NCBI GenBank assembly: GCA_016946835.1
Contig: JACVTC010000100.1
Location: 72,501-136,500, forward strand
DNA from: Neocallimastix lanati (nom. inval.)
Taxonomy: Eukaryota; Neocallimastigomycota; Neocallimastigomycetes; Neocallimastigales; Neocallimastigaceae
DNA length: 64,000 nt
Direction: 5' to 3'
In this document: positions 14,590 through 64,000 of the stretch, in pieces
How positions within the stretch are numbered: position 1 is the first letter of the stretch
How the letters are laid out: every line of letters begins with the position of its first letter
Position numbers and translations under genes: made by a program
The notes under the pieces: model-generated
What the model saw: only the letters and a program-made list of their open reading frames with translations
The model's database searches: none
What the model was told of the DNA's origin: nothing

Positions 14590-15466
14590 ATGTTTAATAA
14601 AATATTAAGAAATAAATATTTATGGTGAGTTTTATTGAAAATTAAGTGTATATACTGTAGAAACAAAAGTTTTAAATAGCATAAATTCTAAAACTTACAA
14701 ATTTATACATATATTTTAATAATATAATTTAATTTTTTAATAAATAAATATATAAACATTATATATATTTATAATAAAAAGTCTTTTTATGTTAATCTAT
14801 ATTCAAATATTCTTGGAAAAAAAGGTTTCTGCCGAAGGTAATGAAATTTTTTTTATTAAATATTTCTATTAAAATAATAATAATAGCAATAATAATAAAA
14901 TAAAATAATCAAATTAATAAATTAAAATATATTATTTTATTATAAAAAAAAATTTTTATTATTTAAATATATATATATGATATTTATTAAAGTCAACTGC
15001 TATAGTGGTAAATAAAAATAATAAAATTATATAATTGTTAAATTAAGAATAAATTAATATATATTAATTATTTAATATTTAATGTTTTAATAAAATATTA
15101 AATAATAATATATAAAAACTAAAATAAAACAAGGATGTATTCAAAGTAAGTAAAATGAATTTATTTTTTATATATATTAAAAAAGTTTTAAAATTTTATT
15201 TTATTAATTTTTTTTATTGCTATTGTTATATATAATATATAATTATTTATAGAGATTGGAAGTAAATATAACTGAATTACTGTTATTATTAATAAAAAAA
15301 AAATATTAATAATATTAATGAAAAAAAATCATTCATAAATAAAAAATAAAAAAAAAATAATATTTATATTTTTTCATATAACTGTATAATTTTTAAAAAA
15401 ATAAAATTAAATATATATAAACAAAAAATGATAGCTGAATATAAATTTGATTATAGTAAGTTTTTT

Positions 15467-15503
<37 letters not shown>

Positions 15504-16717
15504 AATTAATATATATATGATATATATAAGTTGTATATTATATTTATTAAATAATAAAAATAGAAAATAAATTTAATTTATTTGTTAAATAATTTATTTT
15601 ATATATATTTAAAAATTATTTAATGAAATGATTATTATATTTATTATTTTTATTAAATAATTATATAAATATATTTTATAATTATATTTTTTAATAATAA
15701 AAAATATTAATAAAATATTATTTACTAATATTATCAATTTAATATTATTAACAATGCTTGTAATTATTGGTAAATAGGTTGTGATAAACGTAAATATTGT
15801 TATATAGCCTTAATAATAATAAATCATTTTAATCACAATATTTTATATATGAAAAGTTTAACTTTTTGATATAAACTCTAACTAATAAAATCTATTATTT
15901 TTATTTGAATTAAAAAATATTATTAAATTGTTTTTTTATTATTTACTTTTCTTTGAAATAGAGACTAATGATTGCTTTAGTAAAGAGAAAAAAATTATTT
16001 TAATTTTTATAAAAATTATAATATATTAAAATTATTTAAATAATAATAAACTAATTTATTTATTATTCATTATATATTTTAATATTTATATTTTTTTAAA
16101 ATATATATATATATTTTATATATTTAATAATAATAATAATAATGAATATATATATAATTTTCTTAATATTTATTAAAACAGTGGAACAAGAAAGTTTGTA
16201 TTAATTATTTATATATTAATATTCATACTTTATTATAAATTTATATTATGTATAATTTGAAAAGTGTTAACAATTTTTAATTTGTTATATTAATATATAT
16301 TTATTTTTGTCATAATAGAAAGTTTTAAAGGTTAGTGTAAAGTTTATAATTTTTAAATTAATTTCACTTAAATAAATCTAAAATAATACATTTTTATTAT
16401 ATATATAAATGAATTAATTTACCTTGGAAAATGTACTATTTTATATTAACTACAAACAAATTATAATATTTTTTCTATTTCTTTTATGTCCATTAAGCTT
16501 ATGACGATGGTAAATATTTTAGAATAAAATTGTTATATATATATAATATTTTTAGTTTATAAATAATATTATTAAAATTCTTAGCTTTTCTATTTTATTA
16601 AATCATAAAAATAAAATAATATCTAAATTATTATTTTATAATTATACATATAAACGAAACAATTAATAATTATTTTCCCTTAGCAATGCAAAAATGTTTA
16701 GGTAATTAAATTTATTG

Positions 16718-16758
<41 letters not shown>

Positions 16759-19016
16759 ATAATATATAGAATAAATAATTTTTTATCTATTTAAAATATT
16801 TATTATAAATTTTAATTTAAATTATAGGTTCAATTCTTCTTTCCAAATCATGTTCTGAAGGTATATAATAACTTTATATGTACATTTATTAGAAAAAAAA
16901 TTTTTTTATAAATAATATAATAATTAAAATTTTTATTATTATAATATTATATAGAAACATTTAACCAAGGTAAGTCATAGTTATAATATTTAGTAATTAA
17001 ATATAATTTCTAAATTTTGTACTTGGTCATTCTTATAAAATACTAACTTTACTATTATTATTATACATTGTTCATTATATAAATTATATATATATACATT
17101 TATCTAATTTTATATATCTATATTCATATAATATAATCATTATTAATTAATTTCCTATTAATAATCTAAAAAAAATATTACTTAATAATAATTATTAATA
17201 TTTTTTTATTTTTAAAAAAAAAAGATGGCTTTAATTGTAATATCATTGAATTTAATATAATTTATTTTATAACGAGATAGAAAAGATAATAAAAATTAAA
17301 AAATAAAATAAAAATATATAATTATAATGTAATATTAAATATTAATATATAAATTATTTACATATTTTACATATTTTAAATTAAATTTCAAAATCTTATA
17401 GCATGTTCAAATGGTAATCTATTAGCAACACTTTATATTTTTATATATTTATTATATATATTATGTTTTTAAACTTATAATATAATTATGGGAAATTTAA
17501 AAAATTAAATACTAATTATTATTAATAATTATTAATAATTGTATTTTACTACTAAATTTTAAACTATACTATTTTGTAAATATAAGATGCCAAAAAAACT
17601 GCTGAATGTATATTTCATATCAATCAGATATATAAAAGAATTATTTAAATATAAATTTTTTAAATAAATTTTGTTTACTAATTTTTTTTTTTTTTTTTAA
17701 ATTTTGAAAATAATTTTTAAAAAAAAATCATAATACAAAATATTAATTATATATATTTATATAATTAAAATAATATTAAACATGACATAATATCAATAAT
17801 AAAATAAAATAATAATAAAAACAGCCTGTAAAAGTAAATAAATTAATATATTTACAATTATATAATAAATATATGAATATTAAAAGTTCATACTTTTTTT
17901 TTAAAAAAATTAATATCAATATATAAAAAGAGAATTGTAATGAAACTGGTAAGATATTATATATTTAATATTAAAAAAATTTAAGTAATTGTAATAATTT
18001 CTTTTTATATATAAAAAAATTAAATGAAAGTATTAAGTATTATTAACATTCTAAAATATATTTTATTTATAATTTTTAATTCTTTATATTGATTTAAATT
18101 GTTTATTAAATAATTCGAATATTATGGAAATAGATGAATGCATATTTGGTATCGTATTGTATAATTATTTATTATTAGAATAAAATAAATTAAAAATATA
18201 TATATATGAATATTGTTCTATTTAAGAGAAAATGTATTAATTAAAATTATAATTTAAATCTTCTTTTTTTTATTTTTTAGGATGTGCAAATGGTGAGTGT
18301 CATTTTTAAAATAATTAAAATAATATGATATAAAATAAACTATTCAATAATAATTATATATATAATCCAAAATATTTAATTAAAAAAAAATTCTATTATT
18401 ATCTAATTTTCATATAATATTTAACTTTCGAAAATAATAATAATAATATTAATATTCTATTATTGAATTTTCTAATGACTTTTTTTTTAAAAAAAATATA
18501 TATATATATAATAATTTTTATTATTTTTCATTTATTAGATTTTAATAAAGGTAAATATATATATATATATATATATTATAATTAATATAAAAATTTAAAA
18601 TATTTATAAAATAAATTTAATTTATATAACTTTTAAAATTAATTTTAAAATAAAATTTTATTAATAATAATTTTTTTTTCTTCTAAAATAGCTAGAAAAT
18701 CTTGTTATCAAAGTATAATAAAATAATTTTATAATTTTTTTTTTTAAAAAAAAAAAATTAATAAATATTAATTATAAATTATAATTTTTTTATTATTATG
18801 ATATTTCTTATTATGAATATAGCATATATTGTTAAAAGTAAGTATAAACAATCATACCAATATCATTTATAATTAATTGTTAAACAATAATAATGACATA
18901 ATTTTTAAAACATTTTTTAATTATAAATTTTTTTTAATTAATTATTGATATATATAGTTAAGAAATCTTCTATATTTGATGATACTACTATTGATAAAAT
19001 TGTCAATGACCATTGA
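14590..19016 (+). CDS. Micro-exon gene: secreted Cys-rich protein, about 25 exons
   Basis: Proposed exons: 14590-14624, 14782-14837, 14993-15007, 15134-15145, 15253-15261, 15435-15455, 15778-15789, 15962-15979, 16182-16193, 16319-16330, 16498-16509, 16684-16701, 16828-16860, 16955-16969, 17225-17236, 17402-17413, 17587-17607, 17825-17833, 17931-17948, 18134-18148, 18281-18292, 18539-18550, 18692-18712, 18823-18837, 18958-19016. All 24 introns are GT-AG, many with GTAAGT or GTAAAT donors and TATAG or AATAG acceptors. The joined frame is 486 nt, 161 residues, ending in TGA. Intron 1 is phase 2 and all others are phase 1. All 22 exons between phase-1 introns are multiples of 3 (9-33 nt). Residues 1-29 look like a signal peptide: basic start, hydrophobic core 10-23, then VSA before Glu30. 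The remainder has 12 Cys (33, 37, 51, 58, 76, 86, 99, 110, 114, 120, 124, 135), including three CX3C pairs, and a Lys/Asp-rich tail. I recognise no family. Least certain are exons 1-3, 6 and 19. Confidence 0.85.
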
Positions 19017-23887: not shown

Positions 23888-26517
23888 ATGAAATTTTTAA
23901 ATGTTTTGTTAATAAGTGTTCTAAGCACTTTAGTATATTCTCTTCCAAGTATGTTTATGTATTAAAAAAGAATATTATTGATGTATTTAACAAATATCAA
24001 ACAAAACATATTTATAATAATTATAATTAAAAATATATATATATAAAATATATAGGTAATGATAAGGCTAATGATGCTAAAGTTGTCATTGAAGAATCAA
24101 ATGAAGAACCAATTAATGACTATGAAATGAAACATCAAAATATTTTAGATAAATATTTAAGTGAATGTACCGTTTTATTAAGAAAGAATGGCGATTTCCC
24201 TATTTCTTCAAAAGAAAAGAAAATTTATTTATATGGTAATGGTGTAAGAAAAACTGTAAAAGGTGGTCTTGGTTCTGGTGATATTAATATAAGATCATTT
24301 GAAACGATTGAAACAGCTTTTACAAAGAGTGGATTTAAAATTTTATCAAATGATTATTTAGATGCTTATGATATCTGCTATGAAAAAGCACATAAAGAAT
24401 ACATTAAAAAACTTCAAGATGAATTTGATTATGAGAATGGTTATGGGTATGTTATAAATCATTTCAGTGTAGTTATGAATGAACCAGAATGTGATCTTCC
24501 AGTTAAAGAGAAAGGAGATCTTGCTATTTATGTCTTATCAAGATCATCTGGTGAAGGTATTGACAGAAATGTAGAAAAGGGTGACGTTTTCCTTACTGAT
24601 ACTGAAAGAAAAACCATTAAGACTTTAGCTAAAGGATTTAAGAAATTCATGCTTGTATTAAATACTGTTGGTCCAGTTGATTTATCAGGTCTTGATGAAG
24701 TTAAAAACATTTTAGCTCTTTCTCAACTTGGAGCTCATACTTCTAAAACATTAGTTGAACTCGTTACCGGTAAAAAGTATCCATCTGGTAAACTTGCTAC
24801 TACCTGGACTAAGAAATATGATGATTATAATGTTAATTTTGGTAATGTCACAGATACAGATTACCTCGAAGGTGTCTATGTAGGTTACCGTTACTTTGAT
24901 TCAGCTGATGTTGATGTTTTATTCCCATTCGGTTATGGCTTAGGATACACCGATTTCAAGATTAAATATAATAAAGTTAGTTTAATCGGTGATAAAGTTA
25001 GTGTTAATGCTTCTGTTAAAAATATTGGTAAGTTCAAAGGTAAAGAAGTTTTGGAACTTTATTTATCTAAACCAAACACTAAATTAATGGATGAACCATA
25101 CCAAATCTTAGTTAATTTTGCTAAAACTAAAGAACTTAAACCAGGAAGAAAGGATAATGTTAAATTACAATTTAAATTATCAGACTTTGCTAGTTATGAT
25201 AGTAAGAGTCAATCCTACATTTTAGAAGCTGGTTCCTACATTGTTCGTCTTGGTAATTCTAGTAGAAATACAGTTCCATGTGCTGTTATTAAAGTTCCAT
25301 CAAGAGTTACTGTTAAAAAGGTTAAGAACCAAATTGGAAATTCTGGATTTAAAGATATGAGTTTCCATTCAAAGAAGAGAGATAACTTAAACGGAGTTAA
25401 GAGATTCAAACTTAATGTTAAAAGTATAAAAATGGAAGTTATTGATTATGATACCCCATATGAAATTGATGAAACCATTAAATCGTTATCCGTTGAAGAA
25501 AAAGTAAAATTTGTTATTGGTGCTCATAGTCCGGAACCATTTGGAAATTACGCCAAACTTATTGCAGGTTCCTCGGGAGAATTTTACAAGTTCAGAGATT
25601 TAAAGCCAGTTGTTTTATCTGATGGTCCAGCAGGTATTAGTATTGCTAGAGATTATTTCATTGATGAAAATGGTGTTCCTCAAAGCACTTCAGGATCATT
25701 TTCTGATTCCACCTTGGAAATTATTCCAGATGATGCCAAACCATCCCTTAGTTTCTTATTCCCAAATATTCCTGAAGGTGTTAAACTCCACCATCAATAC
25801 ACTACCGCCATTCCAATTGCCACAGCCTATGCTCAATCATGGAATGTTGAATTTGCTCAAAAGATTGGTGACATTATTGGTTCTGAAATGAACATTTTCA
25901 AAATTAATTTATGGCTTGCTCCAGCTTTAAATATTCACAGATCAATCTTAAATGGTAGAAACTTTGAATACTACTCTGAAGATCCATACATTAGTGGTAT
26001 AATTGCCTCATCTGTTATTAAGGGAGTTCAAAGTCATAAGAATGCCTATACTACTCTTAAGCATTTTATTGCTAATAATAGAGAAACTAACCGTTCATTT
26101 AACAGTAGTAATATGTCTGAAAGAGCCTTCAGAGAAATTTATTTAAAGGGATATGAAATTGCTATTAAGAATGCCAATCCAAAAGCTATTATGTCCTCTT
26201 ACAATTTAGTTAATGGAAAGCACGTTAATGAAAATGCTGGTATTATTAATAATATTTTAAGAAAAGAAATTCATTTCAATAATATTGTAATGACTGACTG
26301 GCTTTTTACTGGCATGGCTGCTAACGATCCAGGTCATAAATACCAAGAATACAGTCCATATGAAATTATTAAATCATCTGTTGATGTTATCATGCCAGGT
26401 AACAAAGACTTCTACGATAATGTTTTAGAAGCTGTCAAGACAAATAAATTAAGTATTGAGACTGTAGAGGCTAGCGCTACTAGAATTTACAAATTTACAA
26501 AGGATATTCAAGAATAA
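23888..26517 (+). CDS. GH3 beta-glucosidase-type enzyme with permuted domain order, secreted
   Basis: Likely beta-glucosidase releasing glucose from cello-oligosaccharides. Exon 1 is 23888-23948 (20 codons plus one base) and exon 2 is 24056-26517. The 107-nt intron runs from GTATGT to TATAG in phase 1. The 840-residue product starts with a signal peptide (MKFLNVLLISVLSTLVYS). The usual GH3 C-terminal alpha/beta domain comes first (about 50-290, with TVLLRKNGDFPI and LATTWTKKYDDYNV). A fibronectin-III-like module follows (about 300-400), then the catalytic (beta/alpha)8 domain (about 470-840). That last domain holds LSDGPAGI, the KHFIANNRE substrate-binding motif and VMTDW, whose Asp768 (codon 26296-26298) is the expected nucleophile. 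This inverted order is known from Ruminococcus albus and Butyrivibrio enzymes, so transfer from a rumen bacterium is likely. The substrate is inferred. Beta-xylosidase activity is possible. Confidence 0.93.
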
Positions 26518-31436: not shown

Positions 31437-33686
31437 TTATTTACAAATACCATATTTTGGTTGACATCCAGTACCACAATATTCATCAGTCTTACCACAA
31501 TAGTTATATTTACTACAACAGTAACCAGATTTGGAGCAAGCTCCATAATTTGGTCCACATCTATCAGAAACTGTGGAAGTTGGAACTTTCACAGTAGTAG
31601 TTTTAGACTTTTTAGTAGTAGTTTTAGACTTTTTAGTGGTAGTTTTGGACTTTTTAGTAGTAGTTTTAGACTTTTTAGTGGTAGTTTTGGACTTTTTAGT
31701 GGTAGTAGAAGAGGAGGAAAAACAAATACCGAATTCATTTTGACATCCATTACCACAATATTCATTTGTAGTACCACAATAACCATATTTACTACAACAT
31801 TGATTAGATTTAGCACAAGCTCCGAAATTTGGTCCACATCTATCAGAAACTGTGGAAATTGGAACTTTCACAGTGGTAGTTTTAGACTTTCCAGTGGTAG
31901 TAGATGAGGAGGAAAAACAAATACCGAATTCATTTTGACATCCATTACCACAATATTCATTTGTAGTACCACAATAACCATATTTACTACAACATTGATT
32001 AGATTCAGCACAAGCTCCGAAATTTGGTCCACATCTATCAGAAACTGTGGAAATTGGAACTTTCACAGTGGTAGTTTTAGACTTTTCAGTGGTAGTAGAT
32101 GAGGAGGAAAAACAAATACCGAATTCATTTTGACATCCATTACCACAATATTCATCTGTAGTACCACAGTAACCATATTCACTACAACATTGATCAGGTT
32201 TAGCACAAGCTCCGTAATTTGGTCCACATTTACCGGAAACCGTAGATATTGGTTGTTGTTTTTTTAAAGTTGTTGTCTCAGTTTTGGTTGTACCGGTTGT
32301 TTTTTTGGATGTGGTGGACTTTCGTGTGGAAAGTTTATTAGTAGTATTAATAGTAGAAGAAGAAGTAGTAGTAGAATTAGTAGTAGTAGAATTAGTAGTA
32401 GTAGAATTAGTAGTAGTAGAATTAGTAGTAGTAGTGGAAGTAGTAGTAGTGGAAGTAGTAGTAGTGGAAGTAGTAGTAGTGGAAGTAGTGGTAGTGGTAG
32501 TTTCAGTGGTTTCAATTTTTACTGGTGTATTATAGCAAATACCATAAGGAGATTGACAACCATTTATAATTTCACATTCACTTTTTGATGGATAAGCCAT
32601 TACACAAATACCATCAGCACTACAGCATTCAAATTCACCACAACTTTTTTCAACATCTGATCCACATTTTCGTGAAATTGATTTTTCAATGTATTTAGTA
32701 TTTTTAGCATCAAGTTCTTCTTTAGAAGAATATTTAGAATAGCATTCACCAAATTCACTTAAACAACCTTTGCCACAATAATCTTCTCCTATACCACAAA
32801 TGCCATCTGGACCACAGCATTCATAATTATTACAAACCTCATAGTCATTTTCTGGACCACATCTAACGGTAGCCCAAGAGCAAATACCATAGCCCTCTTG
32901 GCATCCATATTTTGGATTACAATCAGTAACTTCAAAACCGCAGTGACCTGTCTTGCTACAACAATTTATAGGTCTAAATATATTACATACACCATATCCT
33001 GGACCACATCTATCTGAATAATGGTCATCAGCATTTTCACAAGTGTTAGAAGATAATTTGCCAAGAAGATCCTTAGCGATACTTAATTCTTCATCATCTT
33101 TAATACCGAATCTATATCTGAAGTATTCTCCATTTTCATAAGATGAAATGAGACCTTCATAGAAGGATTGAAGTCCTAATTTACATTCATCATAACGACA
33201 AACTCCATAAAAAATATCATTGAAATAATATTTATCTAAAACTTTTGGATTTCCATAATTAATCATATTATGTACGAAAGGACAGGCTAATCTAAAATAA
33301 GTTTGACTTTGATCACTATCACATAACAATTTTCCAAGACCATATTTAGCATCTAATGAAGTAAATAATTCAAATTTATTGATTGATTCAGAATTTTTTA
33401 ATTCCTCAAAATCTTTTTTAGCATATTTTATTTGTTTTGGATATAAGATACGATAGCATGACCAATAAATAGGGTTATCATAAAAATCTTGACATTCTTC
33501 TGAATTGAAACTTTCACAAAAGCTATCAATATATTCTGTAGTATATGGTTTTTTACTTTTTAAAGCGCATGCTTTAAATTCTTCGAAATAATCCTCACAA
33601 TTTTTAAGTCTTGTTTCAATAGTATCCTCTCCTGAAACCAAGGAAACAAAAAGGAAAATATAAATTGTAATCAAATATTGTTTCAT
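31437..33686 (-). CDS. Secreted multi-CBM18 chitin-binding protein, 749 aa
   Basis: Single-exon gene with a signal peptide (about residues 1-19). A Cys-rich, probably helical domain (about 25-216) has the pattern of paired Cys seen also in the proteins at 52.8-54.6 and 60.2-60.9 kb. Seven CBM18 (hevein-like) modules follow. Three lie at about 227-385, then a Ser/Thr-rich linker, and the other four are beyond about 480. Each has the RCGPxxGxC, CCSxxGYCG, CGxGCQxxFGIC cysteine frame. The third module is the most diverged. Modules 4-6 sit in a 195-bp tandem repeat. A (KKSKTTT)n linker precedes module 7. No catalytic domain is present. Binding of chitin or GlcNAc is family knowledge. Acting at the fungus's own wall, or shielding it from chitinases, is inference. 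The coding strand's ACC/ACT runs create long mirror frames on the opposite strand that are not genes. Confidence 0.92.
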   Translation of the reverse strand: MKQYLITIYIFLFVSLVSGEDTIETRLKNCEDYFEEFKACALKSKKPYTTEYIDSFCESFNSEECQDFYDNPIYWSCYRILYPKQIKYAKKDFEELKNSESINKFELFTSLDAKYGLGKLLCDSDQSQTYFRLACPFVHNMINYGNPKVLDKYYFNDIFYGVCRYDECKLGLQSFYEGLISSYENGEYFRYRFGIKDDEELSIAKDLLGKLSSNTCENADDHYSDRCGPGYGVCNIFRPINCCSKTGHCGFEVTDCNPKYGCQEGYGICSWATVRCGPENDYEVCNNYECCGPDGICGIGEDYCGKGCLSEFGECYSKYSSKEELDAKNTKYIEKSISRKCGSDVEKSCGEFECCSADGICVMAYPSKSECEIINGCQSPYGICYNTPVKIETTETTTTTTSTTTTSTTTTSTTTTSTTTTNSTTTNSTTTNSTTTNSTTTSSSTINTTNKLSTRKSTTSKKTTGTTKTETTTLKKQQPISTVSGKCGPNYGACAKPDQCCSEYGYCGTTDEYCGNGCQNEFGICFSSSSTTTEKSKTTTVKVPISTVSDRCGPNFGACAESNQCCSKYGYCGTTNEYCGNGCQNEFGICFSSSSTTTGKSKTTTVKVPISTVSDRCGPNFGACAKSNQCCSKYGYCGTTNEYCGNGCQNEFGICFSSSSTTTKKSKTTTKKSKTTTKKSKTTTKKSKTTTKKSKTTTVKVPTSTVSDRCGPNYGACSKSGYCCSKYNYCGKTDEYCGTGCQPKYGICK
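31731..32315. repeat. 195-bp tandem repeat encoding 65-residue CBM18-plus-linker units
   Basis: The block starting GAATTCATTTTGACATCC recurs at 31731, 31926 and 32121, an exact 195-bp spacing. The copies at 31731 and 31926 are almost identical for at least 150 bp. The third is slightly more diverged. The unit equals one CBM18 module plus its Ser/Thr linker, so module number in this gene may vary by unequal crossing-over. Confidence 0.9.
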
Positions 33687-40723: not shown

Positions 40724-42982
40724 TTATTGATCTAAAACTCCCCATAAAGTGGAAAGGAAGTTGTAATAACCGGTAGTACAGGCAAGGTCATCATGAAGAG
40801 CACCTGGAACTGTAAACCAAATATGAGGTTGTCCATTTGTAGCTAAAGCTTCATGGTAAAGTTTTGGATTCTTTTGAACAGCAAAGTCCTTAGTTCCAAC
40901 TGTAATCATAGAAACAATTGGTTGAACTTCAGCATCAGCTTGTAATTCTTCTGGTTTCATTAAACCAGGTTGATGACCAGCCATAATATCATAACATGGG
41001 AAAATACCTTGAGCAGGTGAAAAAGCACCAAGGTATCCGAATAATTCTGGATGTTTGTAACCAATATAGATAGTGTTACGGCCACCTTGAGAGAAACCAG
41101 CAAGAGCAGTATTTTCTCTTCCGAGAGCAACAGAATAATGAGATTCAATATATGGCATAACATCATCAATTAATTCATAGAGGAAGTTATCATAAGCCTT
41201 CAAATATTCTGGTGAAAATTGTGGTCTATCGAAAACACCATCTAATGGGACATAACAATCTGGAAGAACAATAATCATTTCCTTAGCTTTACCTTCACTA
41301 ACTAAATTACCATAAATTTCAATAGTGGCTCTTTCTTTTGCTAATAATGAATCTTCATTACCAGAAAGACCATGTAAATAATATAAAACAGGGTACTTCT
41401 TATCTTCAGTGTAACCTGCAGGTAAGATAACATTCATTTTACGGTCCATTTGAGCTGTAGTAGAGAAATAGGTAATCTTTTCAGCTTCACCGTAGGCAAC
41501 ACCTTCTCTTCTGACCTTAATTTCGGATGGACAGAGATCAACAACTTCAAGTTTGCTCATGTAACCTTCCTTAGGAAGTTCTTTTTCATAAGGAGCATTA
41601 TAATCTGGGAATTTACCAAAGTCTGGTTTGTCTTCTGGTAAGACAAAAGTTTCATCAGGATTACCCCAAGTTCCAGAAGGATCATTAGCAGTTCCGGTTG
41701 GTTTTGGATCATCTAAGATCTTCCATAAGGTAGAAATGAAGTTATAGTAACTAGCTGAGCAGGCATCACTATCATGAAGAGCATCAGGAACAGTAAACCA
41801 AATATGAGGTTGTTCATTAGAGGCGAGAGTTTCATGGTAAAGTTTTGCTGATTCTTGAGCTTCAGTATCTTTTGCACCAACAGTAATCATAGTAACGATA
41901 GGTTGAAGTTCAGCATCTTCAACTTGTAATTCTTCTGGTTTCATTAAACCTTGTTCTTTATTGTATGGTAAAAGACCTTGAGTAGGTGAGAAAGCACCAA
42001 GGTATCCAAATAATTCTGGATGTTTGTAACCAATGTAAAGAGAACTACGACCACCTTGACCAAAACCAGCAATTGCGGTATTTTCTCTACCAGAATCTAC
42101 AGAATAATTTGATTCTATGAATGGCATTACATCTTGAAGCAATTCATTAATAAAGTTATCATATGCAGCATTATATTCTTCTGAATTTCCTGGTTCTATT
42201 TTAGCACCATCTGCTGGAACAATACAATTTGGAAGAACAATAATCATATCCTTAGCCTTACCTAAATTAACTAAATTACTATAAATTTCAAGAGTACCAA
42301 TACTTTTTTCTAATAATCCATTTTCATCACTTAATAAATCATGTAAATAATATAAAACAGGGTATTTTTTTTCTTTAGAATAATCTGGAGGTAAAATGAT
42401 ATTCATTTGACGTTCAGTGTGAGTAGTGTTAGAGAAATAAGTAACTTTTTCAGGTTGAGCATACATAATACCTCTAAATGCCTTAGCTTGTGGTGGACAG
42501 GTTTGTTCAACCTTAAGTTGACTCATGTAACCTTCTTTTGGAATTTCTATATCAGAAGAAACATCGTCATTAGGGGTTTCATTGGATGAAGAAGTTTCTG
42601 TTGGTTCTAATTCTGCTAAAGTTTGAGTTGGTTCCACATCACTTTCGGTTTGTTCCACATCACTTTCGGTTGGTTCAATTATACCACACCATTGATCTTG
42701 TTCAACACCCCAATCACCACTAGCATCACTAACAGCTACACTTGTGGTATTTTCACAACAAGGATAACCTAATGAAGCAGACCAACATTTTTCAGCTGTT
42801 TCATGGTCTGTTACACCACACCAATCATCATTTTCAACACTCCATAAACCATCATTATCAGTAATGACAGTTGCATAGCCGATACTACAACAAGGGTATC
42901 CTAATTTTTCAGAAAAGCAAGTTGCATATGCTTTTAAATTAAAAAGTATACTTGTTAAAGTCAAAATTTGTAAACTCTTCAT
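40724..42982 (-). CDS. Dockerin-bearing tandem feruloyl/CE1 esterase, 752 aa
   Basis: Probable cellulosomal esterase releasing ferulate or acetate from xylan. After a signal peptide (about 1-20) come two CBM10-type fungal dockerins (about 21-57 and 65-101). Each has C-x6-LGYPCC, a WxVExxxWCG end and the expected Trp/Cys spacing. An acidic Glu/Pro/Thr linker follows (102-150), then two homologous esterase-D-like alpha/beta hydrolase domains (about 150-425 and 470-750). Domain 2 has the full set: LHGLSGN oxyanion loop, GFSQGG with nucleophile Ser631, and a His at 730. Domain 1 has LHDLLSD and GFGQGG with Gly308 in place of Ser, though His403 remains, so it is very probably inactive. The Gly codon is GGT where domain 2 has TCT. 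Dockerins attach such proteins to the extracellular gut-fungal cellulosome. Ferulate specificity is inferred. Acetylxylan esterase is the alternative. Confidence 0.93.
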   Translation of the reverse strand: MKSLQILTLTSILFNLKAYATCFSEKLGYPCCSIGYATVITDNDGLWSVENDDWCGVTDHETAEKCWSASLGYPCCENTTSVAVSDASGDWGVEQDQWCGIIEPTESDVEQTESDVEPTQTLAELEPTETSSSNETPNDDVSSDIEIPKEGYMSQLKVEQTCPPQAKAFRGIMYAQPEKVTYFSNTTHTERQMNIILPPDYSKEKKYPVLYYLHDLLSDENGLLEKSIGTLEIYSNLVNLGKAKDMIIVLPNCIVPADGAKIEPGNSEEYNAAYDNFINELLQDVMPFIESNYSVDSGRENTAIAGFGQGGRSSLYIGYKHPELFGYLGAFSPTQGLLPYNKEQGLMKPEELQVEDAELQPIVTMITVGAKDTEAQESAKLYHETLASNEQPHIWFTVPDALHDSDACSASYYNFISTLWKILDDPKPTGTANDPSGTWGNPDETFVLPEDKPDFGKFPDYNAPYEKELPKEGYMSKLEVVDLCPSEIKVRREGVAYGEAEKITYFSTTAQMDRKMNVILPAGYTEDKKYPVLYYLHGLSGNEDSLLAKERATIEIYGNLVSEGKAKEMIIVLPDCYVPLDGVFDRPQFSPEYLKAYDNFLYELIDDVMPYIESHYSVALGRENTALAGFSQGGRNTIYIGYKHPELFGYLGAFSPAQGIFPCYDIMAGHQPGLMKPEELQADAEVQPIVSMITVGTKDFAVQKNPKLYHEALATNGQPHIWFTVPGALHDDLACTTGYYNFLSTLWGVLDQ

Positions 42983-47919: not shown

Positions 47920-49930
47920 AAATATAAGTACAGATTAAATAAGATAAAATAAAATATATAAAATAGTAAAATATGAATTTAAATATAAAATACATATTGA
48001 ATAATATAAGATAAAATAAAATAAATAGTTGAAATATTAATATAAAGTACAGATTGAATAATATAAAATAAAATAAAATAAAATAAAATAAAATAAAATA
48101 AAATAAAATAAAATAAAATAAAATAAAATAAAATAAAATAAAATAAAATAAAATAAAATAAAATAAAATAAAATAAAATAAAATAAAATAAAATAAAATA
48201 AAATAAAATAAAATAAATAAATAAAATAAATAAAATAAAATAAAATAAAATAAATAGTAGAATATTAAATATGAAGTACAGATTGAATAAAATAAAATAA
48301 AATAAAATAAAATAAAATAAAATAAAATAAAATAAAATAAAATAAAATAAAATAAAATAAAATAAAATAAAATAAAATAAAATAAAATAAAATAAAATAA
48401 AATAAAATAAAATAAAATAAAATAAAATAAAATAAAATAAAATAAAATAAGATAAAATAAAATAAAATAAAATAAAATAAAATAAAATAAAATAAAATAA
48501 AATAAATAGTAGAATATTAAATATGAAGTACAGATTGAATAAAATAAAATAAAATAAAATAAAATAAAATAAAATAAAATAAAATAAAATAAAATAAAAT
48601 AAAATAAAATAAAATAAAATAAAATAAAATAAATAGTAGAATATTAAATATGAAGTACAGATTGAATAAAATAAAATAAAATAAAATAAAATAAAATAAA
48701 ATAAAATAAAATAAATAGTAGAATATTAAATATGAAGTACAGATTGAATAAAATAAAATAAAATAAAATAAAATAAAATAAAATAAAATAAAATAAAATA
48801 AAATAAAATAAAATAAAATAAAATAAAATAAATAGTAGAATATTAAATATGAAGTACAGATTGAATAAAATAAAATAAAATAAAATAAAATAAAATAAAA
48901 TAAAATAAAATAAAATAAATAGTAGAATATTAAATATGAAGTACAGATTGAATAAAATAAAATAAAATAAAATAAAATAAAATAAAATAAAATAAAATAA
49001 AATAAAATAAAATAAAATAAAATAAAATAAATAGTAGAATATTAAATATGAAGTACAGATTGAATAAAATAAAATAAAATAAAATAAAATAAAATAAAAT
49101 AAAATAAAATAAAATAAAATAAATAGTAGAATATTAAATATGAAGTACAGATTGAATAAAATAAAATAAAATAAAATAAAATAAATAGTAGAATATTAAA
49201 TATGAAGTACAGATTGAATAAAATAAAATAAAATAAAATAAAATAAAATAAAATAAAATAAAATAAAATAAAATAAAATAAAATAAAATAAAATAAAATA
49301 AAATAAAATAAAATAAAATAAATAGTAGAATATTAAATATGAAGTACAGATTGAATAAAATAAAATAAAATAAAATAAAATAAAATAAAATAAAATAAAA
49401 TAAAATAAAATAAAATAAAATAAAATAAAATAAAATAAAATAAAATAAAATAAAATAAAATAAAATAAAATAAAATAAAATAAAATAAAATAAAATAAAA
49501 TAAATAGTAGAATATTAAATATGAAGTACAGATTGAATAAAATAAAATAAAATAAAATAAAATAAAATAAAATAAAATAAAATAAAATAAAATAAAATAA
49601 ATAGTAGAATATTAAATATGAAGTACAGATTGAATAAAATAAAATAAAATAAAATAAAATAAAATAAAATAAAATAAAATAAATAGTAGAATATTAAATA
49701 TGAAGTACAGATTGAATAAAATAAAATAAAATAAAATAAAATAAAATAAAATAAAATAAAATAAAATAAAATAAAATAAAATAAAATAAAATAAAATAAA
49801 ATAAAATAAAATAAAATAAAATAAAATAAAATAAAATAAAATAAAATAAAATAATCAATTAAATATTAAGTAAAAAAGTACAGATTGAACAAAATAAAAT
49901 AAAATAAAATAATATAAAATAAAAATGTAT
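47920..49930. repeat. Compound minisatellite: 36-bp unit alternating with (AAAAT)n
   Basis: Thirteen near-identical copies of a roughly 36-bp unit starting AAATAGTAGAATATTAAA and ending AAGTACAGATTGAAT occur at about 48254, 48505, 48631, 48713, 48830, 48917, 49029, 49121, 49183, 49320, 49502, 49599 and 49681. They are separated by (AAAAT)n blocks from about 25 to 210 bp long. Diverged units flank the array at 47920-48060 and 49850-49890. No ORF crosses it. Confidence 0.95.
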
Positions 49931-50522
49931 ATTTAAAGTAGTCAACAACTATTTCAAAAGGAATCAATATAATATACTCGAAAGAAAATAAGTATTTAAA
50001 TAATACATACATAAGAAACTCTAATAGCAAATAAATAAAGGAATAAAAAAGATTAATGTACCATGGATTTATTCAGAACTCAAAATAAGGTTATTAATTT
50101 ATCTTATTAACTAATATTTAATAAACAAAACAAAAAACAAAAAAAAAAAAATAACAAAAAACTCTTTATTAACAATAATTTCAAATATATATATATATAT
50201 GTAAATTTTTTTTCTTTAAAAATGGATCAAATCTAATCTAAACGGAGCATAATTTTAATGAGAATTTAATTGAAATAATTATATGAGATCATCACAAGAT
50301 CACAAATTGTACAATAAGAAGTACAGAAAATTAAATAAAAGGTTATAAAAATAGAAATAGGACAATATTGTACAGAATGAAACTGTTTCGTTCTGTGCAA
50401 TATTATACTTGACTAAATATAGAAAAAAAAATTAATGAGCTCATCAGAGAATTATACCATTATGAAAAAAAAAATATAGTGAACGATTATTGAATCTATC
50501 TAATTTTTATATAAAAAACAAT

Positions 50523-52791: not shown

Positions 52792-54627
52792 TTACTTGCA
52801 GCGACCAAATTCACTTTGGCATCCTCTGCTAACCTTACAGTGATCCTTAGAAGTACCACAGTAATTATACTTACTACAGCATTCACCCTTTGGGCAAACA
52901 CCGTACTTACTTCCACATCTACCATTAGTAGAAGTTTTACGTGCCTTAGCAGTAGTCTTACTAGACTTCTTAGTAGTCTTGGTGGTCTTCTTAGTAGTCT
53001 TCTTGGTAGACTTCTTAGTAGTCTTCTTAGTAGTCTTCTTAGTAGTCTTCTTAGTAGACTTTGTAGTCTTCTTGGTTGAAGTGGTTTTCTTAGTAGAAGT
53101 AACATTCTTACATTTACCAAATTCACTTTGACAACCAGAACCACAATATTCAGTAGACTTACCACAGTAACCATACTTACTACAGCATTGGCCCTTTGGA
53201 CAAATACCATACTTAGCACCACATTTACCATTAGTAGAAGTTTGAAGTGACTTCTTAGTAGTGGTAGTAGTTGACTTCTTAGATGAAGTTTTCTTAGTAG
53301 ATGACTTCTTAGTAGAAGACTTCTTAGTAGAAGTTTTCTTAGTGGAAGACTTTTTAGTAGAAGTTTTCTTAGTGGAAGACTTCTTAGTGGAAGACTTCTT
53401 AGTAGTAGTAGTAGTAGATTCAACCTTTTCACCTTCACATCTACCAAATTCACTTTGACAACCCTTGCTAACATCACAATGATCGCTAGATCTACCACAG
53501 TAACCATACTTACTACAACATTCATTTCTTGGACAAACAGTACCGAACTTGACACCACATCTATCATCAGTAGAAGTTGGAATAGAGTTTATAGAGGTAG
53601 TAGTAGTTGTAGTAGTAGTAGCAACTGGTTCTTCAGAAGTAGTAGTTGTAGTAGTAGCAACTGGTTCTTCAGAAGTAGTAGTTGTAGTAGTAGCAACTGG
53701 TTCTTCAGAAGTAGTAGTTGTAGTAGTAGCAACTGGTTCTTCAGAAGTAGTAGTTGTGGTAGTAGCAACTGGTTCTTCAGAAGTAGTAGTTGTGGTAGTA
53801 GCAACTGGTTCTTCGGAAGTAGTAGAAGTAGTTACTGGTTTTTCAGTAGTAGTGGTAGTGGTAGTAGTAGTTTTTGGTTTTTTAGAGGTAGTAGTGGTAG
53901 TAGTAGTGGTAGTAGTAGTAGTAGTGGTAGTGGTGGTAGTGGTAGTGGTGGTAGTAGTAGTGGTAGTTGTGGTAGTAGTAGTAGTGGTGGTGGTAGTTGG
54001 TTTAGCGATAGTAGTAGGTCTAACGAAAGTAGTTGGTCTAACGATAGTAGTAGGTCTAGCAACAGTAGTAACTCTAGTATTGGCTGGTTTTTTTCCACTA
54101 CCACGACATTGTGCAGAATTAAGATAATTAATATTATCTTGGATACCTTGTTTATTGGAAGCGTAATTTATATATTCTTTGTAGAAGAGAATAGCTAATT
54201 GAGTACATTGTGGGGATTCACAATTTAAATCGAAGGCTTGATCAAAACTATTGAAATTTCTTAACTTCAAAAAGTATTGAACAAGTGGACAGGTATTACC
54301 CTTTTCATCACCTAAACAATATAAAGCACGTTGAAAAGCATATAATCTACGATCTTCAATTTCTGGCATAACCATTTTATTGGTAACAAAACTACAAGTA
54401 GGACAATAATTGTAAGGATTATCATAGAAAACCTTACATTTATCAGAGTTAAAAGCTCTACAGGCATTATTTAAATCATTTGCACTTTCAATCATGTAAG
54501 AACATTCATGAACATTATTTAATTCAGTTTGACACATACGCTTGCGACGTCTGGTTCTTTCTTGTTGAGTTTCAGCAAAAACTGTGCCAAGAGTTAATAA
54601 ACCAATTAAACATTTATTTAATCTCAT
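52792..54627 (-). CDS. Secreted CBM18 chitin-binding protein with Thr-rich linkers, 611 aa
   Basis: Single-exon gene with a signal peptide (about 1-18). A Cys-rich N-terminal domain (about 30-172) is homologous in cysteine layout to the N-termini at 31.4 and 60.2 kb (shared CxxFNSxxCxxFYDNP-type motif and 'TCP' block). A very long Thr tract with six SEEPVATTTT repeats follows, then three CBM18 modules (RCGVKFG, KCGAKYG and RCGSKYG starts, each with CCSKYxYCG) separated by Lys/Ser/Thr linkers of the (KKSST)n type. No catalytic domain is visible. The basic linkers (about 50 residues each) could bind acidic wall polymers, but that is inference. ACC-rich repeats produce long false mirror frames on the plus strand. 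Confidence 0.92.
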   Translation of the reverse strand: MRLNKCLIGLLTLGTVFAETQQERTRRRKRMCQTELNNVHECSYMIESANDLNNACRAFNSDKCKVFYDNPYNYCPTCSFVTNKMVMPEIEDRRLYAFQRALYCLGDEKGNTCPLVQYFLKLRNFNSFDQAFDLNCESPQCTQLAILFYKEYINYASNKQGIQDNINYLNSAQCRGSGKKPANTRVTTVARPTTIVRPTTFVRPTTIAKPTTTTTTTTTTTTTTTTTTTTTTTTTTTTTTTTTTTTTSKKPKTTTTTTTTTEKPVTTSTTSEEPVATTTTTTSEEPVATTTTTTSEEPVATTTTTTSEEPVATTTTTTSEEPVATTTTTTSEEPVATTTTTTTTSINSIPTSTDDRCGVKFGTVCPRNECCSKYGYCGRSSDHCDVSKGCQSEFGRCEGEKVESTTTTTKKSSTKKSSTKKTSTKKSSTKKTSTKKSSTKKSSTKKTSSKKSTTTTTKKSLQTSTNGKCGAKYGICPKGQCCSKYGYCGKSTEYCGSGCQSEFGKCKNVTSTKKTTSTKKTTKSTKKTTKKTTKKTTKKSTKKTTKKTTKTTKKSSKTTAKARKTSTNGRCGSKYGVCPKGECCSKYNYCGTSKDHCKVSRGCQSEFGRCK

Positions 54628-60188: not shown

Positions 60189-60938
60189 CTAAATTAAAAT
60201 AGATAATAAAATTAAAATTATAAAGAATGATATATTTATTATCTTCTTGGAAGAAGCATTACTGGTATTGTAACTATTAGTGGTTTGTGGTTGATAAGTA
60301 TTTGTATAAGGACTGTTTTGATTATGTGAAGAGCAATAGTTTGACTTTAAAAAGGCAAGGGTATAATCAATTTCATATTCACTATTGACTATCGATCCAT
60401 CATAGGGTTTATTGAGGCTAGAGCTGTCCACTGGTGACTTTGTTTCATAATCTGAACCTTTAAATAATTGAATATCTTTTTTAGTTGCATCTATTGCAAT
60501 CTCAGTGCATCTTTTAGATTTACAGGTATCATTGATATATTGATTAAAAACCTTTCTTGCCTCAGATTGATTTGAATTTCTAAATATATGATAATATGCC
60601 ATTGGACAGGATTGATTAAATTCATTTTTTGAGCAGATAACTTCAAAATTTATAAAATAATCAACATATTTTTTTTCAACAGATGATCTTGACTCTAAAT
60701 CTAATACTTTGCAATCATTAAGAATTGTAATACCTTCATTATATAATTTTTGACAATTTGAAGAATGATAGAAATTACAATAGGATTCCAAATTATCCAT
60801 AGTGATACCTTCATAATCAAAACATTTTTTGTAATGTTCATTTAATGTAATTTCACATTTGTTTGCTTTTAATATATCAACCCTAGCATAAGTAATAGAA
60901 GCTGCAATGAAAAACAAAATTTGATTTATTAATTTCAT
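60189..60938 (-). CDS. Probable GPI-anchored Cys-rich surface protein, 249 aa
   Basis: Signal peptide (about 1-19), then a Cys-rich domain (about 27-205) whose cysteines follow the layout of the N-terminal domains of the two CBM18 proteins in this window. The layout is a C-x10-C start, a 'CxxxxSSNCQKLY' motif, a 'SCPMAYY' block, and CKSKRC. It then differs, because there is no CBM18. A short Asn/Ser/Thr/Gln linker with five Tyr leads to a small-residue SSNAS-like site and a C-terminal hydrophobic segment (about 233-249), as in GPI-anchored proteins. A simple transmembrane tail is the alternative. The function of the shared domain is unknown to me. The gene is intact and single-exon. Confidence 0.85.
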   Translation of the reverse strand: MKLINQILFFIAASITYARVDILKANKCEITLNEHYKKCFDYEGITMDNLESYCNFYHSSNCQKLYNEGITILNDCKVLDLESRSSVEKKYVDYFINFEVICSKNEFNQSCPMAYYHIFRNSNQSEARKVFNQYINDTCKSKRCTEIAIDATKKDIQLFKGSDYETKSPVDSSSLNKPYDGSIVNSEYEIDYTLAFLKSNYCSSHNQNSPYTNTYQPQTTNSYNTSNASSKKIINISFFIILILLSILI

Positions 60939-63130
60939 TTTTTTTTTTTTTTTATTTTTTGAAATTTATTTTAGAAAATATATGTTTTATTTTTAAATAT
61001 TAATATTTCTTACACATAAAAAAAAATTTTTTTTTTTAATACTATTTTTAAATAATTAAAAAAATTAAAATAAATAAACATTATGATGGTTACACGAATG
61101 TTCTATAATTTATTGAATAAAACAAATATATTTATTATTTATTATTAATTAATTATTTAATTTCTTCCAATAACAAAAGGTATAATTTATTAATATAATT
61201 ATAATAAAATGTTTTTTTTTTTATTTTTTATTATTTTTTTTTTTTGTAATTACATAAATTACATTAAAACACTAAAAAATGATTGAGTAAACATAATTTT
61301 ATTAAAACATGTGATAATATGTGTCATTTATTATGCAACAATAAAAAATAAAAAAAAAATTTTAATGAATAATTAATTTTTATGTATAAACTATATAAGT
61401 GAATTTTATAATATTATTGAACATATAATGAATTTAAATTTTTTTTTTTTTTTTTTATTAATACAATATTTTATATATTTTAAATATATTTATATATATA
61501 ATACAAAAATATTATTTATTTTTTATTTAATAAATTGATAAATAATATATAAAATATCATAAAATAACGAAAGTATAAAATTTTCAATTATTAAATATTA
61601 ATATTTATATATTTATTATAATTAAATTATCAAATTTTTTAATTTAATATTTAACACTCATTTTTTTTTATATATATTTTACAGAAAACTTTTATTAAAG
61701 TTAATAATATACCTCTAAAAGAAAATTCTTTAAAAAATTTTTTAACATTTAAAAATTTATTATAAACTTTATTGTTAATTTTACTGTTATAGTTATGTCT
61801 ATTATTATCATTGTTACTGTTATTATAATATTTTTTATTATTAGCAACAATATTTTTGACTGTACTTGGCAATTTTACCAATATCTTCCATATACAAATT
61901 AGTATACTTACCAATTCAACTTTATCTTACAATTAACCATCTCATTACCCATTTCATTAACCTATATATAGAATTATGAATTTTATCAAAATTTTCTTGT
62001 TTCTTTTAAAAGCAATAACATATTTCAAAAGACAATATGATTAGTTTTTCTGGGATGATATTAATTATATAAATATATATTATTATTTCATGATATATAT
62101 TTTTAATTAAAAATTTTAATTCATAAATAATTTAACAATAATAATATATAATAATAATAATGTATTAACAACAAAAAAAAATAAAACATGTATATATTCA
62201 ATTGAAATATATGAAAAAAGTATAAATATAATTTAAAATAATATATATATATATATTTATATATATAATCAGATTTTGTAAAAATTATAATAACTATAAA
62301 AGAATAATGAAAAGACTATTGAAATTATTTAAACTCATGAAAGATTAAACAATGAATGATATTGATATAAAAAAAATAAATTTAAATAAAATGAAATAAA
62401 ATAAAAATTTTAAAGCAACCATGAAATTATAGATTGGAATTATTAATATTACTTCACTGTATTCTTCCTCAAATAAATAGAGTTAATTAATTCATTTTTT
62501 CTATTGATTCAATATGTGACGAAAGATTATTTTTGCTTCTTTCTTTTATATGCTTGAATATGTTTCTTTTTTCTATTTATTATCAAATAATATGTATTGA
62601 AAAAAATATTTATATAAAATATTAAAAGTCAAATATAAATATTTTGTACAATATGTTTTTTTTATATTTAATGATATTTTTTCTTTATTTATTTAATTAT
62701 TATTATTGTTATTATTATTATTTTGCTATTATATAAAATATAACGCTTTAAAATTTTTTAGAATTTATATAATAATATTTTTATATTTATTTTATAAAAT
62801 TAACAATTTGACATTTATATATTCTAATATAGTATATTTAAATTTTTTAGAACTATTAGATCAATTTTTTTTTTTTTTTACATTTATATTACAAAATTTA
62901 CAAAGTTTTTCAATTTATATTCATAAATATGTTATATTCGAATATTAAACAAAAAAATATACATATATATATATATATTTATTAAATTTAACAATATATA
63001 ACATTGTATAATTATAAAAGATTAAAAAAAAAAAAAAATTATTTAAAATTGTTCATTTTAATAAAAAGAAAAAGTAGAAATTTACTCTAAAATATTAATC
63101 TATAATATTCTAATTTCAAAAAGTTATAAT
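60939..63130. other. Intergenic A/T-rich DNA
   Basis: Contains a minus-strand open stretch at 61914-61651 (LVKLPSTVKNIVANNKKYYN, then an Asn-rich run and FKEFSFRGILL) of unclear origin. It may be a scrap of the LINE family's Asn-rich spacer region. Nothing else recognisable. Confidence 0.45.
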
Positions 63131-64000
63131 TTATTGGTAGGCACTTAATCCGAGACATTGATCCATAGTAACCGATTTATATCCTTTAGATAACATAATA
63201 TCAATTTCAGCACTAACTAAGGCAACAATACTTTCTTGAGTACTTCCATTATATTGTAAGTGATTTAAGGAAATAGAACCTTGTCCGTTAGCTCCACTGA
63301 AAACTTGTTTAGCATAGTTGATGTCTTTGTTATCCCAATCTCCAGAATCAAGATTCCAAGTAATAGCCGCAGTGTATCCAAGACTTCCAAGAGTACTCAT
63401 AACATTTTGATTTCCATTACCTGATCCATATGGTGGACGCATGAATGCTGGTTTCTTACCAATAGCTTGAGAAATAGCTCCTTCTAATTGTGTCATTTCA
63501 CTCTTAATTTGATCAGCTGAAAGGGTGGTTAAATCTTTATGATTAAAGGTGTGACTACCAACAACATGACCTTCATTATACATTCTTTGAACAATTCTAG
63601 CCCAGTTTGAATCAGCAGTATTCATATAAAGATTACCAACAACGAAGAAAGTAGCCTTAACATTCTTTTCCTTTAAGAGATCTAAAATAGCATCGGCAAA
63701 TTGAGTTGGTCCATCATCAAAAGTCATAGCCCATTCATTTGGATTAACACATTGAGAGTAGAATTTAAGACCACCGCCTTGACCTCCTTGAGCAACTTGA
63801 CCACCATTATTGTTCCATTGATTATTATTGTTATTATTCCATTGATCATTATTGTTGTTCCATTGATTGTTATTATTCCATTGATTATTGCCATCCCATT
63901 GATTATTATTGTTCCATTGATTGTTATTATTCCATTGATTATTGCCATCCCATTGATTATTATTGTTCCATTGATTATTGCCATCCCATTGATTCCATCC
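63131..64000 (-). CDS. CE4 polysaccharide deacetylase with Asn/Gln/Trp repeat linker (partial)
   Basis: The 5' end lies beyond the window. The frame is open from 64000. About 75 residues of repeats (NNQWNNNNQWDG-type) lead through a Gly/Gln-rich stretch to the NodB/CE4 domain (63731-63131). Visible CE4 motifs are TFDDGP (motif 1, catalytic base and metal Asp), SHTFNH (motif 2, metal His pair), RPPYGSGN (motif 3), LDSGDW (motif 4) and SLNHLQ (motif 5, where LLHD is more common). The domain is complete and ends LSAYQ just before the stop. The family removes acetyl groups from chitin, peptidoglycan or xylan. In gut fungi acetylxylan esterase is plausible, and chitin deacetylase cannot be excluded. 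A dockerin or signal peptide may lie outside the window. Confidence 0.92.
   Translation of the reverse strand, partial: GWNQWDGNNQWNNNNQWDGNNQWNNNNQWNNNNQWDGNNQWNNNNQWNNNNDQWNNNNNNQWNNNGGQVAQGGQGGGLKFYSQCVNPNEWAMTFDDGPTQFADAILDLLKEKNVKATFFVVGNLYMNTADSNWARIVQRMYNEGHVVGSHTFNHKDLTTLSADQIKSEMTQLEGAISQAIGKKPAFMRPPYGSGNGNQNVMSTLGSLGYTAAITWNLDSGDWDNKDINYAKQVFSGANGQGSISLNHLQYNGSTQESIVALVSAEIDIMLSKGYKSVTMDQCLGLSAYQ
63770..64000 (-). repeat. Asn/Gln/Trp coding repeat
   Basis: Roughly 15-30-bp units with CAATGGAACAATAA and CAATGGGATGGC variants encode alternating NNQWN and QWDGN blocks. The regular Trp spacing is unusual for a linker. The array continues past the window edge. Confidence 0.9.

Follow-up and report, generated by a model that had tools for sequence, protein, structure and literature searches.

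In the anaerobic gut fungus Neocallimastix lanati, positions 14590–19016 of the stretch analysed here very probably hold an intact protein gene of 25 exons and 24 short, AT-rich introns, a member of a micro-exon family that would make diversifying, disulfide-rich secreted proteins. The stretch (hereafter the window; 64,000 nucleotides (nt)) covers positions 72,501–136,500 of contig JACVTC010000100.1 (assembly GCA_016946835.1), and the genome searched for relatives comprises 199 Mb. Joined at their splice sites, the 25 exons give a frame of 161 codons plus stop that is open from ATG to TGA (Table 1). All 24 introns run from GT to AG and measure 94–322 nt; intron 1 is in phase 2 and introns 2–24 are in phase 1. 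Exons 3–24 (n = 22) are 9–33 nt long, and each is a multiple of three flanked by phase-1 introns on both sides. An initial annotation of the window had proposed these exons, phases and frame, together with a coding share of about 11%. On re-analysis all of them hold, the coding share being 11.0%, and its identification of a micro-exon gene is the best reading, supported by the structure, the relatives and the scanner controls.

Base composition shifts at every exon boundary of the gene. G+C content (GC) is 26% in the exons (28% in exons 3–24) versus 8.6% in the introns, which are as AT-rich as spacer DNA. When the 22 internal exons are joined, GC by codon position is 0.33/0.37/0.14, compared with 0.44/0.36/0.18 in 2316 codons from five open reading frames (ORFs) of the window. 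Phase 1 of the joined exons is free of stop codons, whereas phase 2 has 26 and phase 0 has one, and both the codon-position pattern and the absence of stops are confined to phase 1.

We scored exon chains with a scanner that uses textbook splice weights and the codon usage of other window ORFs, on both strands and in three phases, with an exon penalty of 12 or 10; if intron GC is left unrestricted, ordinary coding DNA dominates the output. At penalty 12, the window gives 75.9 bits at the locus, with 18 of the 22 internal exons recovered and spurious exons added beyond the stop; elsewhere, none of the chains listed, three for each strand and phase, exceeds one exon. A penalty of 10 brings one further chain into the list (60857–63216, minus strand, six exons, score 37.1), which contains an internal stop and runs across ORFs. 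Scored alone, the locus reaches 65.9 at penalty 12 and 103.0 with 20 exons at penalty 10, whereas the maxima in 200 dinucleotide shuffles are 8.7 and 15.1, respectively. It should be noted that the score rewards any coding DNA (locus L074, which is ordinary coding DNA, scores 98.1 with only four exons), and the telling figure is therefore the number of exons in AT-rich DNA. At penalty 10 and in phase 1, the longest chain has six exons (19.3) in 29 AT-rich loci of the same genome, seven exons (28.5; L037, with longer exons) in 30 pattern-matched loci (L037–L066) and at most three exons in six 10-kb neighbours on the contig, where other phases give up to five exons (30.6). No chain like that of the window gene is found in the scanned neighbouring 60 kb of the contig.

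The predicted protein begins with MFNKILRNKYLCLFMLIYIQIFLEKKVSA, a signal-like N-terminus with a hydrophobic core that, read by eye, is probably a signal peptide. Twelve cysteines follow it, with C-x3-C pairs at 33/37, 110/114 and 120/124. Such pairs are also present in g1 and g2, two relatives in the same genome, and in two further copies on contig C104; the window gene, g1 and g2 also share the motif C-Y-x-x-C. The best full-length match to the locus in the genome is the locus itself, and there is no second copy. In total, the DNA search returned 363 matches at E ≤ 10, including or besides the self-match, and 40 candidates were scored. The other listed matches (65–96% identical, mostly below 75%, many on both strands) were rejected as AT-rich noise, and no like chain was found in the 29 loci scanned. 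A 63-base query of exon 25 matched only itself in the whole genome at E ≤ 10. Also, the window protein has no match at E ≤ 0.001 in the six-frame translation of its own genome, an outcome expected with exons of 3–11 residues.

The architecture can be checked independently in g1. This relative shares with the window gene a 56-nt signal-peptide exon that runs from phase 2 to phase 1, in agreement with the single-piece exon 2 of the initial annotation, and its 23-nt exon 1 likewise begins with ATG TTT and ends in phase 2. The signal-like exons 1 and 2 were compared in these two genes; the start of g2 lies outside the fetched letters. When the window protein and g1 served as protein queries, a single match came up at E ≤ 1, U3516DRAFT_196409 (89 amino acids, E 1.9e-27), an annotated protein of Neocallimastix sp. 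‘constans’. It lies on a contig of 194,592 bp, compared with 4.0 Mb for contig C1 of the genome searched, and thus in another assembly; profile searches found no protein other than this one. The sequence of U3516DRAFT_196409 can be spliced exactly from g1 DNA in 15 pieces of 23, 56, 21, 9, 15, 9, 6, 12, 21, 12, 24, 12, 18, 12 and 20 nt. Thirteen of its 14 junctions were already present in the g1 model, which had been written down before the match was found. The remaining junction skips a predicted 6-nt exon of g1 that has a low score (1.0) and may be a modelling error, and at its end the annotated protein reads on into an intron of the g1 model. Judged by its name, the protein most likely stems from the published constans project; according to the available part of that report, the genome was annotated with the Joint Genome Institute (JGI) pipeline and RNA reads exist (PMC12341934); for N. 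cameroonii var. constans, the read sets SRP483209–SRP483218 and SRP557719–SRP557723 are named. By comparison of the two sequences, the annotated protein supports the g1 model as an independent check.

It is well supported that this fungus contains not only a micro-exon gene but a gene family. The trait common to the window gene and its relatives is a chain of small exons in multiples of three between phase-1 introns. A 12-nt cysteine-exon pattern has 62 matches in the genome versus 24 in the control. One apparently telomere-linked repeat accounts for 28 of them, and 15 lie on contigs C1, C104 (two places), C235, C268, C351, C431 and C643, where a 9-nt exon pattern matches as well. Counting the window gene, there are nine family places. 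The letters were read at C1, C3 and C643 and over 1.1–1.3 kb of both C104 copies, and the remaining places rest on pattern matches. C351 and C431 share identical exon letters and spacing with the first C104 place and appear to be copies of it; the number of independent members is therefore below nine. The C104 copies have five exons each, CSDICESDDNCQTCCKSAC; their 66 exon nt show two substitutions but no indels and their introns many indels, a comparison that proves little over so small a number of exon bases. A stricter 12-nt pattern gives 31 matches versus three in the control, 28 of them from one repeat; no family gene was found at the others (L037, L052 and L064). L071, L075 and L077 have chains of two or three exons only, and the three-exon phase-1 chain of L077 (C588:596150–597750, minus strand), which includes NECNKKCNND, is a possible further family member. 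The window gene, first described as an outlier, is one within the window but has relatives elsewhere in the genome.

In the relative g2 (C643), one long open exon (C643:675206–676500, at least 1.29 kb) is glutamate-rich; it encodes almost exclusively glutamate, asparagine and aspartate and shares the reading frame of the micro-exons. The g2 domain is preceded by 18 units of the form AG-NNN-GT, tandem repeats of about 139 nt. They are spaced 130–167 nt apart, except for one 317-nt interval that spans a unit whose acceptor has been lost. To judge from their letters, these units are probable one-codon exons. In register, all 18 have invariant AG and GT, and among the 49 columns bases 1 and 3 of the triplet rank highest in variability (entropies of 1.95 and 1.77, with 1.10 for the middle base). 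Base agreement between units is 37% in the triplets versus 70% in the flanks, and triplet GC is 39% versus 8.5%. In phase 1, which is also that of the downstream exons, the triplets give DIETGDLVSPTGSVGEI, common codons with a mean log2 frequency of −5.17 and no stop, compared with −7.89 in phase 0 and −7.33 in phase 2, where 17 codons include three stops.

Across the genome, the unit with a gap of exactly 3 nt has 81 matches versus one in the control, compared with 2 versus 2 for gaps of 0–2 nt and 9 versus 5 for gaps of 4–11 nt. None of the eleven matches with other gaps lies on an array-bearing contig, whereas 78 of the 81 are on contigs with at least two matches. Of the nine family places, seven have an array upstream on their own strand, namely both C104 places, C235, C268, C351, C431 and C643. 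Further arrays are present on C70, C112, C445 and C571, and C643 has another at a second place. The C70 array is within 1 kb of the contig end, and some arrays, being near contig ends, may occupy subtelomeric places. When 15 matches at likely copies are dropped, the remaining 66 contain 29 different triplets. Thirteen further neighbouring pairs in other arrays form phase-1 codons without a stop, the five of C268 being mostly rarer codons that end in C. A looser array pattern has 127 matches versus 20 in the control, with at least 39 in one array on C445, many of them 134–136 nt apart. The virus and GTDB collections contain 5 and 10 single matches to the array pattern, and there is no array at any of these 15.

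The arrays, though not the rest of the family, could also be read as an intronic or upstream minisatellite that happens to have splice-like letters, rather than as one-codon exons. This reading would fit the tandem repetition, the lack of transcript evidence and the low information in the order of the g2 triplets, since 18% of order shuffles score as well. We nevertheless find it doubtful, while granting it some weight, in view of the fixed AG and GT around the most variable bases, the contrasts in agreement and GC, the excess confined to gaps of exactly 3 nt with other lengths near the control, and the common, stop-free codons of phase 1 as opposed to the stops of phase 2. We consider it probable that stretches of secreted protein are built in this family one codon per exon. 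Tens of 3-nt exons, separated by introns of about 135 nt, would lead in phase 1 into the 6–33 nt exons of a cysteine-paired domain, and the array would diversify the protein residue by residue; the window gene would belong to the family but lack an array. Each duplicated array unit would lengthen the protein by one amino acid, which a point mutation in the triplet would recode.

For the family as a whole, the spliceosome would recognise each short AT-rich intron as a unit (intron definition), and the introns could be removed in any order. Under intron definition, exon size is irrelevant and exons of 3–33 nt would be joinable. Exons 3–24 of the window gene are symmetric, so that skipping, loss or duplication of any of them would keep the frame. 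Directed by its N-terminal signal, the product would pass into the secretory pathway; it would be small and held in its fold by about six disulfides, the C-x3-C pairs lying on helices. Relatives diverge fast in the mature part and carry or lack other modules (one-codon arrays, a long glutamate-rich tail); together, fast divergence and variable modules suggest that the architecture probably diversifies secreted or surface proteins by duplicating, losing or skipping tiny symmetric exons. By analogy, such proteins would most likely function on the surface or in the surrounding medium, where they would meet rumen microbes or the host.

Alternatively, an ordinary gene for a cysteine-rich secreted protein might have been invaded by many introner-like introns, leaving the tiny exons as useless left-overs. 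The introns are similar in size and as AT-rich as spacer, and the long single-exon ORFs elsewhere in the window imply that a special process must have acted at this locus, but random insertion would not produce 23 introns of one phase, and the tandem g2 units, each an intron plus a 3-nt exon at spacings of 130–167 nt, point to duplication of exon–intron units; we regard invasion as unlikely. Self-comparison of the window-gene introns is saturated by AT-richness and uninformative. Less probable still is a decaying relic, that is, a former gene that is no longer transcribed or spliced. The lack of both transcript evidence and a second copy of the locus would agree with decay, whereas the 25 exons, all splice sites and the frame are intact, and third codon positions are still AT-rich while the first two are not, as in working ORFs. 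Chance threading of an open frame through AT-rich DNA has a negligible probability, since despite the frequency of short AG–GT segments and the choice of a few boundaries with knowledge of the frame, the shuffles and control loci lie far below the locus, as the tiny chance first assigned to such agreement would have it, and the sister gene g1 matches an annotated protein.

Several observations weigh against an intact micro-exon gene of this family in the window. The window gene is predicted from its sequence, with the putative signal, disulfides and secretion assigned by eye, and a few boundaries were picked with the frame known, in the initial annotation as well as in our re-analysis. The constans protein concerns g1 and not the window gene. 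The array search at both loci found no AG-NNN-GT array in the window gene or g1, and the array is therefore not a defining feature of the whole family. The 9-nt exon pattern is not enriched in the genome (19 matches versus 18 in the control), and a cysteine-in-second-codon pattern (51 versus 29) has 15 of its matches in one rDNA-like repeat (rDNA, ribosomal DNA) and none at a known family locus. The window protein alone has no homologue in the protein collection at E ≤ 10 (13 candidates), no Pfam family above cut-off (the best, GMC_oxred_N, reaches 16.3 bits with a cut-off of 23) and nothing below E 0.29 in the PDB.

Table 1. Exons of the window gene (window positions) and arrays of AG-NNN-GT units (contig positions)
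Feature	Position	Strand	Description
Exon 1	14590..14624	+	35 nt; start codon, first part of signal-like N-terminus; ends in phase 2
Exon 2	14782..14837	+	56 nt, from phase 2 to phase 1; rest of signal-like N-terminus, with its hydrophobic core
Exon 3	14993..15007	+	15 nt, NCYS
Exon 4	15134..15145	+	12 nt, CIQ
Exon 5	15253..15261	+	9 nt, IG
Exon 6	15435..15455	+	21 nt, EYKFDY
Exon 7	15778..15789	+	12 nt, CDK
Exon 8	15962..15979	+	18 nt, TNDCF
Exon 9	16182..16193	+	12 nt, EQE
Exon 10	16319..16330	+	12 nt, SFK; missed by scanner at penalty 12
Exon 11	16498..16509	+	12 nt, YDD
Exon 12	16684..16701	+	18 nt, MQKCL
Exon 13	16828..16860	+	33 nt, SILLSKSCSE
Exon 14	16955..16969	+	15 nt, TFNQ
Exon 15	17225..17236	+	12 nt, GFN; missed by scanner at penalty 12
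Exon 16	17402..17413	+	12 nt, CSN
Exon 17	17587..17607	+	21 nt, AKKTAE
Exon 18	17825..17833	+	9 nt, CK; its pattern led to relatives
Exon 19	17931..17948	+	18 nt, NCNET
Exon 20	18134..18148	+	15 nt, ECIF; missed by scanner at penalty 12
Exon 21	18281..18292	+	12 nt, CAN
Exon 22	18539..18550	+	12 nt, FNK; missed by scanner at penalty 12
Exon 23	18692..18712	+	21 nt, RKSCYQ
Exon 24	18823..18837	+	15 nt, YIVK
Exon 25	18958..19016	+	59 nt, last exon, stop TGA
Array	C643:669347-672359		g2 contig (L082)
Array	C445:11755-20132		
Array	C268:221451-227486		
Array	C112:493095-494150		

Elsewhere in the window, an ORF of glycoside hydrolase family 3 (24127–26517, plus strand) has its C-terminal domain preceding the N-terminal one in the same frame. 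On the minus strand, two proteins with threonine-rich linkers contain four (31437–33686) and three (52792–54627) chitin-recognition stretches, and 40724–42982 encodes a double esterase with two CBM_10 (dockerin-type) domains. Positions 48001–50000 are very AT-rich (GC 5–7%) and purine-skewed. Two genomic repeats were also encountered in the pattern searches. The apparently telomere-linked repeat (L063 and 27 other matches) reads TTTTAG[T/C]TTGTTCGTAAAG; in L063, it adjoins TTAGGG runs as well as open coding DNA. The other repeat, with 15 matches of one sequence on C287, C340 and other contigs, about 6.9 kb apart in C287 and C340, looks like rDNA repeats.

Among known systems, the bicycle genes of aphids, which are putative gall effectors, resemble the window gene in several respects. 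The available text of PMC9168663 describes about 17 exons on average, many of them micro-exons that nearly all start at codon position 2 (phase 2 in the General Feature Format (GFF), after a phase-1 intron), and cysteine-rich, fast-diverging products with an N-terminal signal. The window gene likewise has many micro-exons after phase-1 introns, a signal-like start, cysteine-richness and a fast-diverging family. With the coefficients printed in that text, the bicycle gene-structure classifier accepts it (logit 20.7), whereas the same lengths with even phases give −31.8; the parallel to bicycle genes is thus closer than the initial annotation had noted. In contrast to bicycle genes, the fungal family belongs to another kingdom, has far smaller introns and includes some relatives with one-codon arrays. 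It also has C-x3-C pairs rather than an established CYC motif, to which the C-Y-x-x-C that is present may or may not correspond. The window-protein search of the protein collection (E ≤ 10) found no sequence homology to bicycle proteins, for which the available part of a preprint reports saposin-like folds.

The micro-exon genes (MEGs) of schistosomes are a second parallel. As far as the available text of PMC10526429 goes, Schistosoma mansoni has 35 such genes, with short exons that are mostly multiples of three, secreted products and splicing variation; most exons are of 15 nt (3–81 bp in the abstract) and introns range from 0.1 to 5 kb. The window gene shares the many short exons in multiples of three, but its introns are of 94–322 nt and its exons mostly of 12 nt, and the arrays of 3-nt exons in its fungal relatives are not described for MEGs in that text. 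An isoform of the MEG kind, by skipping of a symmetric exon, may be represented by the annotated g1-type protein, which is without one predicted, low-scoring 6-nt exon. No homology to MEG proteins was found in the whole protein collection, where no separate MEG comparison was made.

In fungi, the available text of PMC11121469 reports one regulated microexon in the Trichoderma transcription factor Xlr2, and states that functional microexons had not previously been described in filamentous fungi and had been tested only in fission yeast. Xlr2 has a single microexon, whereas the family described here has chains of many. In the literature searched, with subscription journals mostly outside, we found no paper that joins micro-exons with Neocallimastigomycota or microexons with anaerobic fungi, and the initial statement that no fungal family of this kind is known stands within that scope. 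Should splicing of the 3-nt arrays be borne out, they would represent, to our knowledge, the densest exon arrangement known and would offer a direct test of the spliceosome on exons below its footprint. Gene finders of today miss such genes, and part of the gut-fungal secretome may thus be unseen. Since no sequence relation to bicycle genes or MEGs was found, we take the fungal family as a third, independent case of micro-exon gene families beside those of schistosomes and aphids; if this is true, the architecture would arise repeatedly where secreted proteins diversify.

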